Assembly: GCF_001999965.1 (NCBI RefSeq)
Contig: NZ_CP019646.1
Coordinates: 2,790,001-2,854,000 of the forward strand
Length of the DNA stretch: 64,000 bases
Reading direction: 5' to 3'
Source: Limihaloglobus sulfuriphilus
GTDB taxonomy: Bacteria > Planctomycetota > Phycisphaerae > Sedimentisphaerales > Sedimentisphaeraceae
Part shown: piece by piece, positions 22,756 through 37,428 of the stretch
How positions within the stretch are numbered: position 1 is the first letter of the stretch
Layout: every line of letters begins with the position of its first letter
The notes under the pieces: generated by a model
Told to the model about the DNA's origin: nothing
Databases searched by the model: none
What the model saw: the letters and a program-made list of their open reading frames with translations, nothing else
Position numbers and translations under genes: made by a program

Positions 22756-24216
22756 ATGAAAGTTACTTTAAAATTTGTTATAGTGCTGATAGTTGTGCTG
22801 TTTGCTATCCGCACATTTGAAGGTTTTCTGACAGTTAAACGGGAAACCAAACGCCTTAACACTGATATTCAACGCGATGCTTTGTTGTTGAAAAACATAA
22901 TAACTGCTTCGGTTCAAAGCACGTGGGTGTCGAACGGCCGTGAACAAGCGATAAAACTGACCGACAAGTTCAATATGGACGAACACCCAATTCATATTTC
23001 ATGGAAACCATTTGAAGGACATGATGGCCTCAATAGCCAATTTGACGAGGGCACATTAAACAAGCTGAAAAACGGTGAAACCGTATCCTTACGTCAGCAA
23101 CGAAGCAAAAGAGGAAAAGTCCAATATTTTTTCATCCCCCTGGATATTCCGCAAGCGGATGGAGTTATTCAACTGGCCGAGACATTAAATGAGAGGAGCA
23201 GATATCTTCAGAATGCGTGGACTCGCGAAGCGATTGCCGGCAGTATGGCTTTCTCTCTAAGCGGTGCCGTTATGTTCCTGTTGGGATTTGCCATAATAGG
23301 TCGCCCGCTAAACAAACTTCAGGACCGGATTAAAGGTATTGGTGAAGGAGATATGGAAAGCAGGCTTGTGCTTCGTGGACACGACGAACTAACGGCACTT
23401 GCCGGCTGCCTGAATGATATGTGCACAAAACTTCATACAGCCTGGCAACGAGAGATAACCGAAACAAAGAAACGTATTGCAATCATGGAACAGATGCGGC
23501 ATATGGATCGCCTTACAACGATTGGAAGACTTGCTTCAGGTGTTGCACACGAACTAGGGACACCCTTAAACGTAATAAGCGGACGTGCAGGAATGATCAA
23601 AGATCGCGTAGAAATCCTCAAAAACGAACAGATTCAAGATAACGCCGAAAAAATAAAATTGCAGGCAATGCGAATGACAAATATCATCCGTCACCTACTT
23701 GATTTCGCCAGACAGACCCCTCCAAAACGAGTTAAAACCAATGGGGGCGATGTGGTTCGCCAGGCAGTAGAATTGGTAAACTGCCTTGGCTATAAGGCCA
23801 ACGCCCGAATGAAACTACCACAAGATACTTCTTCGCTTGTGGTAGATATCGACCCCGTACAGATTCAGCAGGTAGCTACGAACCTGATTGAAAACGCTCT
23901 ACAGGCAATGCCCGAAGGGGGCAATGTTTTTGTAACTGTAAAATCTGTACCAGCCAGTCCGCCCGAAGGAGTGGAAAGTCATAAAGGGCATTTTCTGCAA
24001 ATTACAGTAAAAGATCACGGCATAGGCATTTCTGACGAATATCTAGATAAAATATTCGACCCTTTCTTTACCACCAAAGAAGTAGGAAACGGCACGGGCC
24101 TGGGGTTGTCCATAACATACGGCATCGTTAGAGAACACAGCGGCTGGATCGATGTAATGAGTGAAGAAGGCAAAGGAAGCTGTTTTACCGTGTATATTCC
24201 GCAGGAGTTTTTATGA
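22756..24216 (+). CDS. Membrane sensor histidine kinase (NtrB/AtoS-like)
   Basis: Protein of 486 aa. A first membrane segment (about 4-20), an extracytoplasmic domain of about 130 residues, a second membrane segment (about 160-182), HAMP (about 183-235), HisKA with phospho-acceptor H265 (ASGVAHELGTPLNV), and HATPase with N box NLIENALQAMP, G1 DHGIGI and G2 GTGLGLS. It overlaps the response regulator gene by 4 bases. The signal sensed is unknown. The pair probably controls the sigma-54 promoter at 25746. Confidence 0.94.
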   Translation: MKVTLKFVIVLIVVLFAIRTFEGFLTVKRETKRLNTDIQRDALLLKNIITASVQSTWVSNGREQAIKLTDKFNMDEHPIHISWKPFEGHDGLNSQFDEGTLNKLKNGETVSLRQQRSKRGKVQYFFIPLDIPQADGVIQLAETLNERSRYLQNAWTREAIAGSMAFSLSGAVMFLLGFAIIGRPLNKLQDRIKGIGEGDMESRLVLRGHDELTALAGCLNDMCTKLHTAWQREITETKKRIAIMEQMRHMDRLTTIGRLASGVAHELGTPLNVISGRAGMIKDRVEILKNEQIQDNAEKIKLQAMRMTNIIRHLLDFARQTPPKRVKTNGGDVVRQAVELVNCLGYKANARMKLPQDTSSLVVDIDPVQIQQVATNLIENALQAMPEGGNVFVTVKSVPASPPEGVESHKGHFLQITVKDHGIGISDEYLDKIFDPFFTTKEVGNGTGLGLSITYGIVREHSGWIDVMSEEGKGSCFTVYIPQEFL

Positions 24217-25574
24217 TGTCAGGACACATTCTTATTGTTGATGATGATCAGGACATGTGCGAAATGCTGCATGACGATCTAACCCAGAGAGGCCACCGTG
24301 TTCAATGGCACACCAGTTCGGAAAGGGCTTTTGAGACATTCATGCGTGAGTCTTTTGATACAGTCATAACCGACTTAAAGATGCCGGGACTCAACGGTAT
24401 TGATTTCTGCAATCGACTCTCTAAGAACCGCCCCGATGTACCCGTAATTGTGATTACCGCTTTTGGCACTCTTAATACAGCTGTTGAGGCAATCCGGGCA
24501 GGAGCCTATGACTTTGTAACAAAACCAATAGAAACAGATCTGCTTAACATTGTTATCAACAGGGCATTAAAACATCGCTCGCTTCAGGAACAGGTTACGT
24601 TTCTAAAAAAACAAAACCGCAGAAACGCGGAGGATTTTGGCGAGTTTATAGGCAGAAGTCCGGCCATGGAACGGTTATTTGATCAGATATCCCGTATCGC
24701 CGACCAGCAGGTACCGGTTTTGATTACCGGTGAATCCGGAACAGGTAAGGAATTAGTTGCCCGTGCTTTGCATCGTCACAGTAAACGTCGAAAAGCCTCT
24801 TTTATCCCTGTTAATTGTGCTGCCCTGCCCGGAATGCTGCTGGAAAGCGAATTATTCGGCCACGCACAGGGTGCTTTTACAGACGCCCGCTCAGACAGAC
24901 GAGGTCTGTTTACGGAAGCAAATGGAGGCTCTTTATTTCTAGATGAAATCGCTGAAATCCCGCTGGAACTTCAGCCAAAACTTTTGCGGGCGGTTGAAAC
25001 AGGCTCGGTTCGTCCTATTGGTGAAAATATGGAACTAAAGTCAAATGTGAGGATTATCGCGGCAACTAACCGTGATCTGGAAGCTGCTGTAGAAGAAGGG
25101 ATATTCAGAGAAGACCTGTTTTTCCGCATCAATGTTGTAAGGCTCATTGTTCCGCCTCTTAGGGCACGCGGCAGAGACATCCTGCTTCTGGCCCAGTATT
25201 TCCTTCAAACTATTGCGCAACGCGACGAGAAATCAGTAAAAGGTCTTTCTCCCTCTACGGCTGAAAAACTGTTAGCTTATAGTTGGCCGGGCAATGTTCG
25301 AGAACTCCGAAATGCCATGGAACATGCGCTGGCGCTGACACGATTCGAAGAAGTTGTCGTCGAAGACTTGCCTGATAAAATCAGAAACTACAAGAGTTCA
25401 CAAGTTGTTCTTGGGGGCAGCAATCCGGACGAACTGCTCACTCTGGAAGACGTTGAACGGCAATATGTTGATTATGTTTTAAAAGCAGCAAACGGCAATA
25501 AAAGTGTTGCCGCACGTATCCTGGGACTTGGACGGCGCACGTTGTATCGCAAGCTGGAAAATTGGGGTATTTAA
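24213..25574 (+). CDS. NtrC-family sigma-54 response regulator
   Basis: Protein of 453 aa: receiver with phospho-acceptor D54 (VITDLKMPG), AAA+ domain with Walker A GESGTGKE (173-180), GAFTDA at 220-225 in place of the common GAFTGA, Walker B GGSLFLDEIAE, R-finger region FREDLFFRINVVRL, and a Fis-type HTH at the C-terminus (NKSVAARILGLGRRTLYRKL). The start overlaps the kinase stop by 4 bases. It activates sigma-54 promoters on phosphorylation; a matching promoter lies 170 bp downstream. Confidence 0.95.
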   Translation: MMSGHILIVDDDQDMCEMLHDDLTQRGHRVQWHTSSERAFETFMRESFDTVITDLKMPGLNGIDFCNRLSKNRPDVPVIVITAFGTLNTAVEAIRAGAYDFVTKPIETDLLNIVINRALKHRSLQEQVTFLKKQNRRNAEDFGEFIGRSPAMERLFDQISRIADQQVPVLITGESGTGKELVARALHRHSKRRKASFIPVNCAALPGMLLESELFGHAQGAFTDARSDRRGLFTEANGGSLFLDEIAEIPLELQPKLLRAVETGSVRPIGENMELKSNVRIIAATNRDLEAAVEEGIFREDLFFRINVVRLIVPPLRARGRDILLLAQYFLQTIAQRDEKSVKGLSPSTAEKLLAYSWPGNVRELRNAMEHALALTRFEEVVVEDLPDKIRNYKSSQVVLGGSNPDELLTLEDVERQYVDYVLKAANGNKSVAARILGLGRRTLYRKLENWGI

Positions 25575-29982: not shown

Positions 29983-31100
29983 GCGGATTCAACTCCCAAG
30001 TGCAATTAAGTTAAATCCTGTTTTGTTATCCTGTTAGTTTTTTCCTCTTATAGAATACTTCATTTGGGGTTAAAAATCCAAGAGATTTTCTGGGTCGATT
30101 ATTCAGTCGATTCATTATGTGCTCAATCTTCTGATTGGTCAGCATTCGGATGTCACTTCCTTTTGGTACATACTGACGGATCAAGCCATTGGTATTCTCA
30201 TTCAAGCCCCGCTGCCATGCACTGTAGGGATCGGCAAAGAAGACCTTAATTTTAAGGTTATGGGCAATAGATTCATGGTTTGAAAATTCTTTGCCATTGT
30301 CCACTGTCAGTGTATAGGTTCGTCGGGGCAGCGTGCCGATCAGGGCGATAATGGTCCGTTCAACCGCTTCGGCGGTATAACGATCTACCTTACCGATCAG
30401 CGTCAGCTTGCTTTTGCGGTCAACCAGGGTTACCAGGGCTCCCTGATGGTTTTTCCCCACGACGGTGTCGCCTTCCCAGTCCCCGATGCGGTTTTTTCTC
30501 TCTACAACCGGTGGGCGTTTTTCGATACCAACCCTGTTTTTGATCGTTCCACGCCGGTCCCGGCTGTTTCTTCGTTTTCTTCTTTGTTTGGTCCCGGCAA
30601 TCCGCAGATGGGTATACAGGGTTTCTCCCCGGGCTTTATCCTGCCAAATGTGCTGGTAAATCCGCTCATGACTGACGGCCGGCCCCTGCCAGTGGGGATC
30701 GGTTTTCATGCGTTTTGCGATCTGCTCCGGCGAATGTTGCTGCCGGAGGCGGGATTCAATGTATTCTATCGTCTCCGGCTTCATTTTGACTGCTTTACGG
30801 GCGGCCATCCGTCGATATAAAGCCTTTTGCTGGGCCTGCTTAGGGCGATAGCCCCGCAGACCTGTATTGCGGGCCAGTTCCCTGCTGATCGTGCTGGGAG
30901 AAACGCCCAACGCCGCAGCTATTTGTTTTTGTTGATTTCCTGCTTGCTTCATGGCATATATTTCGATACGATCGTCTTCGGTGAGCTGCTTGTACGCTCT
31001 CATAAGTGTTCCTTTCGTTGAGGTCACCATAATTCAGTGAGAGAGTATACCAGCTCACCACAATTTTGGCGACTTAATTGCACTTATGAGTTGAATCCGC
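29983..31100. mobile_element. IS30-family insertion sequence, apparently complete
   Basis: Element of 1118 bp. Terminal inverted repeats of 29 bp (29983-30011 and 31072-31100) match at 27 of 29 positions; they begin GCGGATTCAACTC. A single IS30-type transposase fills the interior. If the ends are read from GGATTC, a 2-bp GC target duplication flanks it, within the range for IS30; with the longer ends no duplication is seen. Inserted between the SGNH hydrolase and dnaK terminator, apparently without damaging a gene. Confidence 0.93.
30026..31003 (-). CDS. IS30-family transposase
   Basis: Protein of 325 aa. N-terminal HTH (YKQLTEDDRIEIYAMKQAGN, then AAALGVSPSTISRELARNTG), then a DDE catalytic domain with D in IGDWEGDTVVG, D in LTVDNGKEF and E in RGLNENTNGLIRQYVP, as in IS30. 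ATG 31003 (MRAYKQL) is chosen over an upstream ATG at 31030. No frameshift or premature stop is seen, so the element is potentially active. Confidence 0.95.
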   Translation of the reverse strand: MRAYKQLTEDDRIEIYAMKQAGNQQKQIAAALGVSPSTISRELARNTGLRGYRPKQAQQKALYRRMAARKAVKMKPETIEYIESRLRQQHSPEQIAKRMKTDPHWQGPAVSHERIYQHIWQDKARGETLYTHLRIAGTKQRRKRRNSRDRRGTIKNRVGIEKRPPVVERKNRIGDWEGDTVVGKNHQGALVTLVDRKSKLTLIGKVDRYTAEAVERTIIALIGTLPRRTYTLTVDNGKEFSNHESIAHNLKIKVFFADPYSAWQRGLNENTNGLIRQYVPKGSDIRMLTNQKIEHIMNRLNNRPRKSLGFLTPNEVFYKRKKLTG

Positions 31101-33189: not shown

Positions 33190-33232
33190 TATAAATCTCC
33201 ACGTTTATAAATAAATTATTAAAATTCCAAAT

Positions 33233-33272
33233 AATATACTTCTGTGCCAGTTTAGTTGCAAACACCGTGCCA
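33233..33272 (-). promoter_or_regulatory. dnaK promoter region: sigma-54 site overlapping a sigma-70 promoter
   Basis: Minus strand 33272-33257 reads TGGCACG-GTGT-TTGCA, a perfect sigma-54 consensus, preceded by the preferred pyrimidine. The same TTGCAA (33261-33256), a 17-base spacer and TATATT (33238-33233) form a sigma-70 promoter. Both would transcribe dnaK (start codon at 33189) with leaders of about 40-60 bases. The two polymerases could not occupy the site together. Confidence 0.6.
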
Positions 33273-33433
33273 GAAAAAAGCAACAGCATTAAACTCATGC
33301 CAACAAAGACCTTAAACAACAAAACACTTTATGTTTTTTATGCCAATATGGCAGATTTGTCAGGATTACAGGAATTGATATGCATTTCCCCGCAATTCAT
33401 AACAGCCGATCAGACGTGTGCGGCATTTTCGTT

Positions 33434-33495
33434 AGATTGCGGCGGCAATCTCCGACGTAACACCGCTTAAATCAAAAGGGTGTCTGACCCCTTTT
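33434..33495. repeat. Two palindromes at the 5' edge of the Rhs fragment
   Basis: AGATTGC-GGCG-GCAATCT (33434-33451) is followed by AAAAGGG/CCCTTTT (33474-33480 and 33489-33495), the latter ending in a T-run and resembling a terminator. They mark the point where Rhs-like sequence begins abruptly, so they may be REP-like elements or recombination scars. The only available start codon of the Rhs frame lies inside the second hairpin. Confidence 0.45.
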
Positions 33496-35039
33496 TAGTT
33501 TCAAAGGATCATATTCTGGATTTCGACTATACCTATGAATCCGGGACAAACAATATTGCAAGCAAGCAGTTTGGGCATAGAAGCTCTGCTCCGGCAACTA
33601 CTTATACGTATGATGACATTGACCGCCTGCTGATGGCTCAGCATCTTGGGGTCTCTGCCAACACCGAAGATTTTACGAATATGGATGACCTCGGCAACCG
33701 TGACGGCGATATCACTATATGGGACGAATCAACATCAAGTTACGATGATATTGAATTTGCTGTAGATCCGGATAATAACCAGTATAATTCTATTGACAAT
33801 AAGGGGATTTCGTATGATAATGCCGGCAACATGACTGAGGATATACACGATTATACCTACACTTATGACTACGAAAACCGCCTTGTCAGGATTGAAGACG
33901 GCCAGAGCGCGGCAGTTGCTCAGTTTTGCTATGATGCCCTTGGCAGGCGGATTATGAAGGACGACAATACGATGGATTATCCCTGGATGTATTATTATGA
34001 CAACAAGGGGCGGATGACCATAAGTAGGTCAACCGTCTCGGTTGACATTTTTTCGGCAGTCGGCGGGCAGGGCCCCTTACGCGAAATCCGGACGGGTTTC
34101 CCGCCCTCTCAATGTCAAGCGGGGACGCTTGACCTACTTAACCTGCATTCGGTTGTCGCGATTGCGAATTCGTCTTCAAATTTCGATGTTGTAGAACGCT
34201 GCGAGTACGATGCGTACGGCAACGCCCACATCTTCACCGCCGGCACAGACGGTGAGTTCTACACCGGCGACGATGTTTACACCGCCGCTTCCGCTTTCGG
34301 CAACGAGTACACCTTCACCGGCAGACGCCTCGATACCCTTGATTCCGGCAATCTCCGGCTTATGTACTATCGAAACCGCTACTACTCGCCCGAAATAGGA
34401 AGATTCCTGCAAAAAGACCCGCACGGCATAAACCCCGACGGCAACTGGAATAACCCCTATTCGCCGCGAAAGCAGTTTACAGACGGCACGAATCTGTACC
34501 TCTATGCCAACAGTGACCCGGTGGATGGCAGGGATGAATGGGGGCTGTTCTTATGGTCATGGGAGGATAAAAGTATTTATGAAAGGTATTACAAAAGACG
34601 TTATGTTGATGTTTGGTGGTACGATCGGTTATTTTTCGACATCCGGCGAAAAGTATCGTTTTTAGTTGCCGTATATACGAGATATAAAGTGGGTATAGCT
34701 GGTTATTCCCATTTAACGGGGACTGGAGAGGTAGGCCCGCTCTATGAGTTTAGTATGACTACATTTCAGTACCCAGACAAACTGAGGCTGGAAAGGTATA
34801 AAGAAGCAATAAAATTGGGTTACAAAATACCGTGTAAAGCTCTCTATCAATGTATTACAGATTATTGCAATGGTAAGACAAGTAAAAAAAACCAAAGCGT
34901 CAAAGGCGTATTAGTTCTTACCCAAAATCAAATTCATTCGCCAAACATTCCTAGTAATGATTTGCTTCCAGTTAAATGTGAACATTCAAAGGAAGATTGT
35001 GACAGGAAATGCAAACCATATTTTAGGCCATTTGAATGA
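33480..35039 (+). CDS. Rhs repeat-associated core protein fragment with unknown C-terminal (toxin-like) domain
   Basis: Frame of 519 aa lacking the N-terminal part, signal peptide and most repeats of Rhs proteins; an in-frame TAA lies 12 bases before the GTG at 33480. YD repeats (YTYDDIDRLL, YTYTYDYENRLVRI, CYDALGRRIM) lead to the Rhs core LMYYRNRYYSPEIGRFLQKDP and LYLYANSDPVDGRDEWGLF. After this junction the last 170 residues are unique, basic and Cys-rich near the end (CEHSKEDCDRKCKPYF), as in polymorphic toxin tips. A 40-residue insert comes from a MITE-like repeat. Whether the fragment is expressed is doubtful. Confidence 0.75.
   Translation: MSDPFLVSKDHILDFDYTYESGTNNIASKQFGHRSSAPATTYTYDDIDRLLMAQHLGVSANTEDFTNMDDLGNRDGDITIWDESTSSYDDIEFAVDPDNNQYNSIDNKGISYDNAGNMTEDIHDYTYTYDYENRLVRIEDGQSAAVAQFCYDALGRRIMKDDNTMDYPWMYYYDNKGRMTISRSTVSVDIFSAVGGQGPLREIRTGFPPSQCQAGTLDLLNLHSVVAIANSSSNFDVVERCEYDAYGNAHIFTAGTDGEFYTGDDVYTAASAFGNEYTFTGRRLDTLDSGNLRLMYYRNRYYSPEIGRFLQKDPHGINPDGNWNNPYSPRKQFTDGTNLYLYANSDPVDGRDEWGLFLWSWEDKSIYERYYKRRYVDVWWYDRLFFDIRRKVSFLVAVYTRYKVGIAGYSHLTGTGEVGPLYEFSMTTFQYPDKLRLERYKEAIKLGYKIPCKALYQCITDYCNGKTSKKNQSVKGVLVLTQNQIHSPNIPSNDLLPVKCEHSKEDCDRKCKPYFRPFE
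34021..34140. repeat. 120-bp palindromic MITE-like element, copy 1, inserted in frame in rhs
   Basis: Ends are TAAGTAGGTCAA and TTGACCTACTTA, a perfect 12-bp inverted repeat that extends imperfectly to about 29 bp. Each end is itself a hairpin: GTCAACCG-TCT-CGGTTGAC and GTCAAGCG-GGGA-CGCTTGAC. The GC-rich centre is also partly palindromic. There is no coding capacity for mobility. The length, a multiple of three, leaves the rhs frame open. A near-identical copy lies at 37759-37874. Confidence 0.8.
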
Positions 35040-36020: not shown

Positions 36021-36108
36021 TGCGCAAGATATTTAAAGACATGGAATTATATTGTTTTTGAGAACATTAAAATGCAAAAATCATCACATAACACCGATAG
36101 ATACACGT

Positions 36109-36149
36109 ATGTATTATTATGACAACAAGGGGCGGATGACCATAAGTAG
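36109..36149 (+). repeat. 41-bp duplicate of rhs sequence (start of displaced Rhs end)
   Basis: Bases 36109-36149 are identical to 33987-34027 and encode MYYYDNKGRMTIS in both. The last seven bases (TAAGTAG) are the left tip of MITE copy 2. This marks where a second, displaced Rhs 3' end begins. It is interrupted immediately afterwards by an IS110-type element. Confidence 0.8.
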
Positions 36150-36301
36150 AAAATATGGAACGACCGGCCCCACCGGTTGCAAATCTCGTCATAAGCCGGA
36201 TAATTACGGTTTATGCGATAAGGTGTACGTAGCACCTGCCAATCGCGGGTTATTACACTGTGGCAACAGAGCCGCATACAATACGAAAGGTACCGGTCGT
36301 T

Positions 36302-37428
36302 ATGAACAATATTATAACATATGTAGGAATGGATACACACAAAAACAACATAAAGCTGCCATAAAATACCCTGATCGGGATAATGTTGTTGAATTTACAA
36401 TCAAAAATACGCCCTCTGATATTAAACGGGCAGTAAAAAAGATAGCCCGTCAGGCACCTGGGCCGGTTGAATTCTGCTATGAAGCCGGCGTTTGCGGCTT
36501 TTCTCTCAAGCGCAGGATTGAGGCTCTGGGCTTTAAGTGTGCGGTAATCGCCCCATCTCTGGTACCGGTAAAACCCGGAGTTCGTATAAAAACAGACCGC
36601 AGGGACGCAAAGAAGCTTCAGGAGTACTACAGTGCGGGCCTGTTGACCGAGGTTCACGCTCCCAATGAGAAACAGGAGGCAGATAGAGAGCTGGTGCGTC
36701 TTCGTGAGACAGCCCGAAAGGATGTCCAGAGAGCACAACATCACATACTCAAGTTTCTCAATCGTCATAGCTATATTTACCATCAGGGCAATCACTGGAC
36801 AGATAAGCATATAACCTGGCTGCGTGGTATAAACTTCGAAGAGCCCGCCCTGAATGAAGTCTTTGAGGCATATTTCGCCCAGTACATAAACTGTTGTGAA
36901 AGGCTCGACAGGTGTGATCGGCGTGTTGAGGCGCTGGCAGAAACGGATGACTACCGCGAAATGGTAGGTATTTTGAGTTGTTTTCACGGCATCAAGACCA
37001 TCACGGCAATATCCATTCTGGTGGAAATTTTTGATTTTGCCCGTTTTGAATCAGCCCCGGCTTTTATGTCATACCTCGGTTTAACCCCTAAAGAGGACTC
37101 CAGTGGAGAATCAGAAAAAAAAGGCCCGATAACCAAGGCCGGCAATAAGCGGGTAAGGCGGCTGCTCAATGAAACTGCCCACCACTACCGGCATCGATAT
37201 GTTCCATCTAAGGCCCTTAAAAAACGTAGAGAGAGCCGGCCGCAATGGGGAATAGAAATAGCTGACAGGGCCGGGCAGCGTTTGAGTTACCGGCACAGGT
37301 ACCTTCGGGCCAGGGGCAAGATTCTGGTAAAGGCCAACATCGCAGTTGCCAGAGAGCTGGCCGGGTTCATATGGTTCACAGCAACCCAGTATTACGCAAG
37401 AAAACAGGCTCAGCCGCAGAAAGTTTAG
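36302..37428 (+). pseudogene. IS110-family transposase with an N-terminal frameshift
   Basis: DEDD transposase of the IS110/IS116/IS902 family. Expected start is ATG 36302 (MNNIITYVGMDTHK), which holds the first catalytic aspartate. At the five-A run 36341-36345 one A is missing; the rest (KQHKAAIKYPDRDN...) continues in another frame. Catalytic E (FCYEAG) and DxxD (TDRRDAKK) and the C-terminal GPITKAGNKRVRRLL domain are intact. A -1 slip on the A-run would restore the protein exactly, so either the copy is dead or it uses slippage. A sequencing error is also possible. Confidence 0.8.

Follow-up and report, generated by a model that had tools for sequence, protein, structure and literature searches.

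Heat-shock genes with a sigma-54 promoter are known from Escherichia coli, namely ibpB and rpoH, where sigma-54 is accessory to sigma-32. In Chlamydia, the hrcA-grpE-dnaK operon has tandem sigma-66 and sigma-54 promoters, with HrcA controlling the sigma-66 promoter and rpoN going down on heat shock (PMC8762339; for this and the other cited papers, statements refer to the sections drawn on here). In Myxococcus, the orphan response regulator MXAN_4468 is encoded upstream of groEL2 and acts negatively, partly through HrcA (PMC9040617), and integration host factor (IHF) has a bend-site role in sigma-54 promoters of the NtrC/NifA type (PMC7962754). Heat shock of R. baltica induces ClpB, GroEL, DnaJ, GrpE, Hsp20 and dnaK in a cascade that its authors called significantly different, while the same sections report no regulation of rpoH, rpoE or rpoN as the chaperones rise (PMC2754498). 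Sigma-54 promoters on planctomycete chaperones are already predicted in print, in an in-silico survey of 2025 that found them enriched on the GroEL, GroES, GrpE, DnaJ, DnaK and IbpA families in Planctomycetota and Bacteroidota (PMC12316311). Here, we describe the promoter of the Hsp70 gene dnaK in a 64,000-nucleotide stretch of Limihaloglobus sulfuriphilus DNA (the window, G000:C1:2790001-2854000), taken from a closed genome of 3,868,357 bases labelled G000.

The dnaK promoter carries a -24/-12 sigma-54 site, a palindrome further upstream and a symmetric 25-bp element between the two (Table 1). This site is genuine and conserved, and it belongs to a sigma-54 promoter module of chaperone genes. 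We consider it probable, on comparative sequence grounds, that this promoter is served by an activator of the L044 type, with the palindrome as its enhancer and the 25-bp element as a phasing element, and that the same arrangement forms a regulon across much of Planctomycetota. Directly observed were the sites, how well they are conserved, their repeated occurrence ahead of chaperone genes, and where the candidate activator stands in its phylogeny and among neighbouring genes. A preliminary description of this DNA had placed a consensus-perfect sigma-54 site before dnaK, and the exact 16-mer is there, as the window's sole zero-mismatch match to the pattern. The putative sigma-54 control of an Hsp70 gene, raised in the same description, is now well supported by conservation, the enhancer-like palindrome, recurrence before chaperone genes and the presence of rpoN (one RpoN DNA-binding domain in the genome, PF04552, E 2.1e-60). 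The transcription start it proposed near 33247 falls within one base of the one predicted here.

Table 1 Features of the dnaK promoter and the candidate activator. Positions are those of the window unless a genome position is given.
Feature	Position	Strand	Remark
dnaK (Hsp70), 641 aa	31264..33189	-	Pfam/NCBIfam DnaK
Predicted 5' leader of the sigma-54 transcript, 57 nt	33190..33246	-	from sequence
Predicted sigma-54 transcription start	33246	-	inferred from the -12 position
Sigma-70-like TTGCAA-N17-TATATT	33233..33261	-	not conserved; probably chance or lineage-specific
-24/-12 sigma-54 promoter element TGGCACGGTGTTTGCA	33257..33272	-	exact 16-mer; 67 bp before dnaK
Symmetric 25-bp element TAA-N19-TTA (TAAGGTCTTTGTTGGCATGAGTTTA)	33290..33314	-	candidate bend/phasing site or site of a second regulator
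Palindrome TGCCATATTGGCA (TGCCA-N3-TGGCA)	33341..33353	-	candidate enhancer (upstream activating sequence); centre about -101 from the predicted start
Candidate activator L044 (= L124), 457 aa	G000:C1:3825578-3826948		receiver, sigma-54 AAA+ and Fis helix-turn-helix domains (Pfam)

Conservation was followed in the 30 best-scoring dnaK loci of 148 genomes of the order, the window's own included. The -24/-12 site has no mismatch in 14 of these loci, one in 15 and two in the remaining one. Lack of conservation had been named beforehand as refuting evidence; the 16-mer is conserved, with at most one mismatch in 29 of the 30 order genomes. The palindrome is exact in 22 of the 30 upstream regions and carries a single mismatch in the other 8. 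Among 3000 Markov shuffles, a -24/-12 site with up to one mismatch appeared in 5 and such a palindrome in 55. The conserved palindrome lies at about -101, within the roughly 80–150 bp from the start that mark an enhancer position, and its distances to the -24 element show helical phasing in the order (R 0.69). It probably acts as the enhancer.

The one argument for a chance match to the -24/-12 consensus is that looser patterns are no more numerous, in the window or the genome, than expected or in controls. With two mismatches allowed, the window holds 9 matches against 10.6 expected, and the loose motif alone therefore carries no meaning; the looser pattern TGGCAC-N5-TTGC gave 7 matches in the genome against 8 for a backward-read control. 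Four of these 7 are exact sites, one precedes groES-groEL and two lie within long open reading frames. The exact pattern occurs four times in the genome, against none for its backward-read control, and the four copies stand 54–67 bp before hsp20, clpB, dnaK and a receiver-domain gene, L040 (whose start was picked by eye, since the reading-frame list has a longer start, 2046 in L040, that would overlap the site). A chance match, to which we give practically no credence, is contradicted by conservation, by the genes that follow and by the elements found alongside the site.

The preliminary description also saw a sigma-70 promoter, TTGCAA-N17-TATATT, overlapping the sigma-54 site. Such a pair is present, with 4/6 and 5/6 matches, and counts twice in the window scan, in two registers, where shuffles give 1.0. 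If it drove dnaK, the two polymerases would exclude each other at the shared position. However, the pair is not conserved in the order: a -10-like hexamer at the right distance occurs in 4/30 order genomes, that is the window's own and 3 of the 29 others (two of its own family), compared with 7.1% of shuffles, and the conserved parts are the -24/-12 site and the palindrome instead. Since the overlap is not conserved, mutual exclusion of two polymerases is unsupported, and we regard a sigma-70-driven dnaK as very unlikely.

The sigma-54 module recurs elsewhere in the genome. Its palindrome is exact at dnaK, and the module is found with one palindrome mismatch each at hsp20, groESL and clpB. The pattern CTGCCANNNTGNCA gave 16 matches at 15 places, against 10 in the control. 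Besides dnaK and hsp20 there are 13 such places, 11 of them inside an open reading frame of at least 100 aa, and only the groES place has a -24/-12 site (up to three mismatches) 55–165 bp downstream; the clpB palindrome, with its one mismatch, falls outside this pattern. As the module is common to dnaK, hsp20, groESL and clpB, these genes would make up one sigma-54 chaperone (heat-shock) regulon.

We scanned named genomes for the palindrome followed by the -24/-12 site (TGCCAWWWTGGCA-N65..95-TGGCACN5TTGC) and obtained at least 118 stretches, where a hand estimate with uniform bases, with no control scan behind it, puts the chance expectation at about 2. Downstream open reading frames, named by BLAST against the five chaperones of G000, encode a chaperone in 96 of the 118 stretches listed (DnaK 45, Hsp20 22, GroEL 13, ClpB 9 and GroES 7). 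The other 22 of the 118 listed lack a chaperone match, and 10 of them lie within open frames of more than 150 codons. Among the matches listed, 80 rows are titled, and all title counts were made by hand: 55 are planctomycete by title (Kuenenia included), 52 of these with a chaperone; 20 belong to other groups, nine with a chaperone (Bacteroidota 3, Poribacteria 3, Gemmatimonadota including Longimicrobiales 2, Calditrichota 1); and 5 are unspecific, 4 with a chaperone. Contigs that share the module and have the closest DnaK (about 78–84% identical) are, where titled, mostly Phycisphaerae, Sedimentisphaerales or Planctomycetota. The non-planctomycete stretches with the module before chaperones are L167, whose 25-bp element is nearly perfectly palindromic, L188, L220, L180, L232, L168, L189, L198 and L206. 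In L204, L225, L239 and L246, the palindrome and -24/-12 site precede genes without a match to any of the five chaperones, and L204 and L239 have a sigma-54 activator gene nearby as well.

Across the phylum, 129 dnaK loci from 156 genomes were entered for scoring; 27 genomes lay outside the scoring script, one of them being the window's own, which was scored in the order set. The dnaK start was located in 119 loci; of the ten others, nine belong to the family f40 and were scored apart, and one (L336) is outside the scoring. With a -24/-12 penalty of at most 4 and at most two palindrome mismatches, both parts are found at 76/119 dnaK genes, compared with 2/2380 shuffles. By group, the module is present at 5/5 dnaK genes of the window's own order, 13/13 of the other orders of the class and 58/101 of the other classes.

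The 25-bp element TAA-N19-TTA lies between the palindrome and -24 in 24/30 order dnaK promoters, compared with 4.4% of shuffles, and each of the other spacings from 8 to 32 occurs in at most 4/30. This degenerate motif alone is found 17 times in the window against 11 expected, which is no clear enrichment. The element is present in all five of the genome's own sigma-54 promoters examined, where its end stands 17 bp from -24 at dnaK, 17 at hsp20, 29 at groES, 18 at clpB and 27 at L040, which has a second match. Pooling the order (30), scan (96) and phylum (64) sets gave 65 exact elements with the consensus TAASTYNTT-N7-AANRASTTA. These sets overlap (three scan stretches exactly repeat order loci) and their sequences are related, so naive p values overstate the following regularities. 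Distances from the element to -24 cluster at 16–19 and 26–31 bp, and those to the palindrome at 25–26, 34–37 and 44–46 bp. Phasing at 10.5 bp has an R of 0.68 to -24 and 0.67 to the palindrome, and the best-fitting period for the distance to -24 is 11.75, not 10.5. Given its position and symmetry, the element probably shapes or bends the DNA. The strict IHF consensus WATCARNNNNTTR was tried as its identity and rejected, matching 1/30 order upstream regions (last 260 bp, both strands) against 3% in the control.

The HrcA operator, the controlling inverted repeat of chaperone expression (CIRCE), has the consensus TTAGCACTC-N9-GAGTGCTAA. Its absence, reported in the preliminary description, was borne out, with no match in the window at up to three mismatches, and none of the 30 order and 119 phylum dnaK upstream regions has a match below 5/18 mismatches. 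CIRCE was therefore rejected as the identity of the middle element, yet the region upstream of dnaK holds this other symmetric element of similar overall span. The 25-bp element could be a repressor operator, such as a diverged HrcA/CIRCE site, in a promoter that is both activated and repressed. An inverted repeat with a CIRCE-like span (5-N17-5, by eye) in chaperone promoters is what such an operator would look like. Against this stand the distance from the CIRCE consensus in all these upstream regions, and the helical phasing and place between enhancer and promoter, which fit a bending site better. We therefore think a repressor operator unlikely and retain a DNA-shaping role as the preferred reading.

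The genome encodes six clear sigma-54 activators, and L044 is our candidate for the one that serves the chaperone module. In an alignment of its family (98 rows from 86 genomes), 97 rows have G-(A/S)-F-T-G-A in the columns of the GAFTGA loop and one is gapped there; the recognition helix is near-invariant. The phospho-acceptor position is D in 81/86 genomes, E in four (the window's, G001, G002 and G194) and A in G009; L044 of the window's genome thus carries E in place of the phospho-accepting aspartate of NtrC-family receivers. The receivers of this genome and two family members (L124, L125 and L126), with E at this site, are possibly locked on or not phosphorylated. Orthologue-level matches, for which we chose a cut-off of E 2.3e-125 or better, occur in 123/148 order genomes, own included.

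The positions of dnaK and L044 matches were compared in the 118 phylum genomes that have both among the matches listed. In 39 of them the L044 match lies upstream of dnaK, on the same strand and no more than 400 bp away; a further 7 have it within 8 kb. We built a tree from 107 rows, comprising the L044 family with one row per genome (one short row dropped) and 22 activators from five or six genomes (six of the 22 are L044-family members). In this tree, the family falls into a single group of 91 rows, separate from the other activators in the comparison, and the dnaK-adjacent orthologues join the L044 copy of the window's genome. From its near-universality and neighbourhood, the L044-type activator is inferred to bind TGCCA-N3-TGGCA.

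Several observations weigh against assigning the module to L044 and to much of the phylum. At the thresholds used, 43/119 phylum dnaK genes lack the module, and so do the best dnaK genes of the nine f40 genomes, although activator-like proteins score there; these nine loci (L415-L423) encode a divergent DnaK with a GTSNSAA start. Outside the order, phasing between palindrome and -24 is weak (R 0.26 in the scan set and 0.14 in the phylum set), and the 25-bp element is found in only 28/96 chaperone stretches among the scan matches listed. An orthologue-level L044 match is missing from 25/148 order genomes, 23 of them less than 90% complete and two above 90%, and the support of the L044 clade is only 89/83. 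The activator gene is not near dnaK in G000, and among the matches listed it is unlinked in 72/118 phylum genomes, own order included. The module is present at 25/38 dnaK genes with an adjacent activator, 6/7 with a near one and 36/52 with an unlinked one, and an adjacent activator gene is thus no predictor of the module, which is also present at 9/22 dnaK genes whose activator is absent among the matches listed. None of the 45 DnaK scan stretches listed, 33 of which hold at least 1.7 kb upstream, contains an activator-like gene; the strict pattern and the linked arrangement therefore seem to occur in different lineages. In separate searches, all 118 listed scan stretches were examined for an activator gene beside chaperones, with matches in four, all without a chaperone, and the 400 bp or less before 39 adjacent activator genes were read for the palindrome, which has one mismatch in one case and two in five, the rest being worse.

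An alternative is a real module whose palindrome is bound by a different activator, for instance another protein with a receiver, PAS or GAF domain or a PspF-like one. The genome offers six activators, binding of the palindrome by L044 is a prediction, PspF-like proteins of the L046 family occur commonly in the order, and the adjacency of L044-type genes to dnaK, as said, does not predict the module. L046 was the first suspect because it has no sensor domain, and was rejected because four genomes with the palindrome, G003, G004, G018 and G037, lack an orthologue of it. Only the L044 group was found at a clear margin in five of the six genomes with activators listed (the sixth is 74% complete), and it is the group shown beside dnaK, linkage having been looked at for L044 alone. 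A different activator thus seems to us rather unlikely, and L044 remains the preferred candidate.

Further activator and receiver genes were noted. A second receiver-type sigma-54 activator, L045, is encoded about 6 kb from dnaK (24213-25574, +) behind a gene that, by eye, is likely to encode a sensor kinase, and is not the best candidate for the palindrome. L042 and L043, two PAS-like sigma-54 activators (by eye), stand head to head at the left edge of the window. L040 (L040:2118-2540, +; G000 from about 3559217) encodes a receiver-only protein of about 135–164 aa, depending on the start chosen (140 aa scanned). It sits behind a perfect sigma-54 site and a 25-bp element, with only half-sites of the palindrome seen by eye, and its phospho-site, by eye, is N, not D; it may be a pseudo-receiver within the chaperone regulon. 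By eye, dnaK is surrounded by an IS30-like transposase (30026-31030, -), an Rhs-like fragment (33480-35039, +) and an IS110-like transposase (36052-37428, +). Ancestrally, dnaK may have had another neighbour, such as the activator gene, and since moved away from it.

We propose that sigma-54 RNA polymerase would transcribe dnaK from the -24/-12 site when a dimer of an NtrC-family activator, most likely of the L044 orthologue group, binds the palindrome near -100. The bound activator would form a hexamer and open the promoter with ATP, while the 25-bp element, at set helical phases, probably shapes or bends the intervening DNA. The same module would drive hsp20, groESL and clpB, and stress is the presumed trigger of the activator. 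The recurring layout before chaperone genes and in many relatives suggests an uncharacterised way to run the heat-shock response. More tentatively, much of Planctomycetota may run its core heat-shock response through a sigma-54 activator dedicated to it, whose gene perhaps stood next to dnaK ancestrally, and a three-part promoter; as the receiver aspartate has been lost in a few lineages, this one included, the signal may be titration of a chaperone such as DnaK rather than a kinase. If true, this would be a third general heat-shock strategy beside sigma-32 and HrcA-type repression, and a large part of the phylum would rely, for its core chaperones, on a polymerase that strictly requires an activator and ATP. 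For the unexplained heat-shock control of planctomycetes, the model offers a specific wiring made up of a single activator, a 13-bp site, a 25-bp element and a small number of genes.

In the literature searched, which did not cover Studholme and Dixon 2004 on Pirellula activators, neither this enhancer nor the 25-bp element is described, nor is a sigma-54 activator linked to dnaK, and a search with the letters of the palindrome returned nothing related. The sections drawn on of the D. vulgaris sigma-54 regulome contain no mention of hsp20 and no matching motif (PMC4641369).

Comparison with the described systems indicates where this locus agrees with them and where it departs. As in NtrC/NifA-type promoters, the parts run in the order of an enhancer near -100, an element in between and a -24/-12 site, and the candidate activator is NtrC-type with a GAFTGA loop and a Fis-type helix-turn-helix; unlike there, the module precedes general chaperone genes and its middle element is symmetric, with no enrichment of the strict IHF consensus. 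Escherichia coli ibpB and rpoH are likewise heat-shock genes behind a sigma-54 promoter, but sigma-54 is accessory there. The Chlamydia operon likewise has chaperone genes behind a sigma-54 promoter, within the Planctomycetes-Verrucomicrobia-Chlamydiae group, and is set apart by HrcA control of its sigma-66 promoter and the fall of rpoN on heat shock (PMC8762339). MXAN_4468 resembles the candidate activator as an orphan response regulator gene beside a chaperone gene, and it controls its neighbour, but it acts negatively and the sections drawn on show no sigma-54 activator function for it (PMC9040617). The enhancer, middle element and dnaK-linked activator described here go beyond the 2025 survey, in whose consulted sections none of them appears (PMC12316311). 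Thus, promoters of this kind are known, and what makes this variant new is its set of genes, together with its palindrome, symmetric element and candidate activator.
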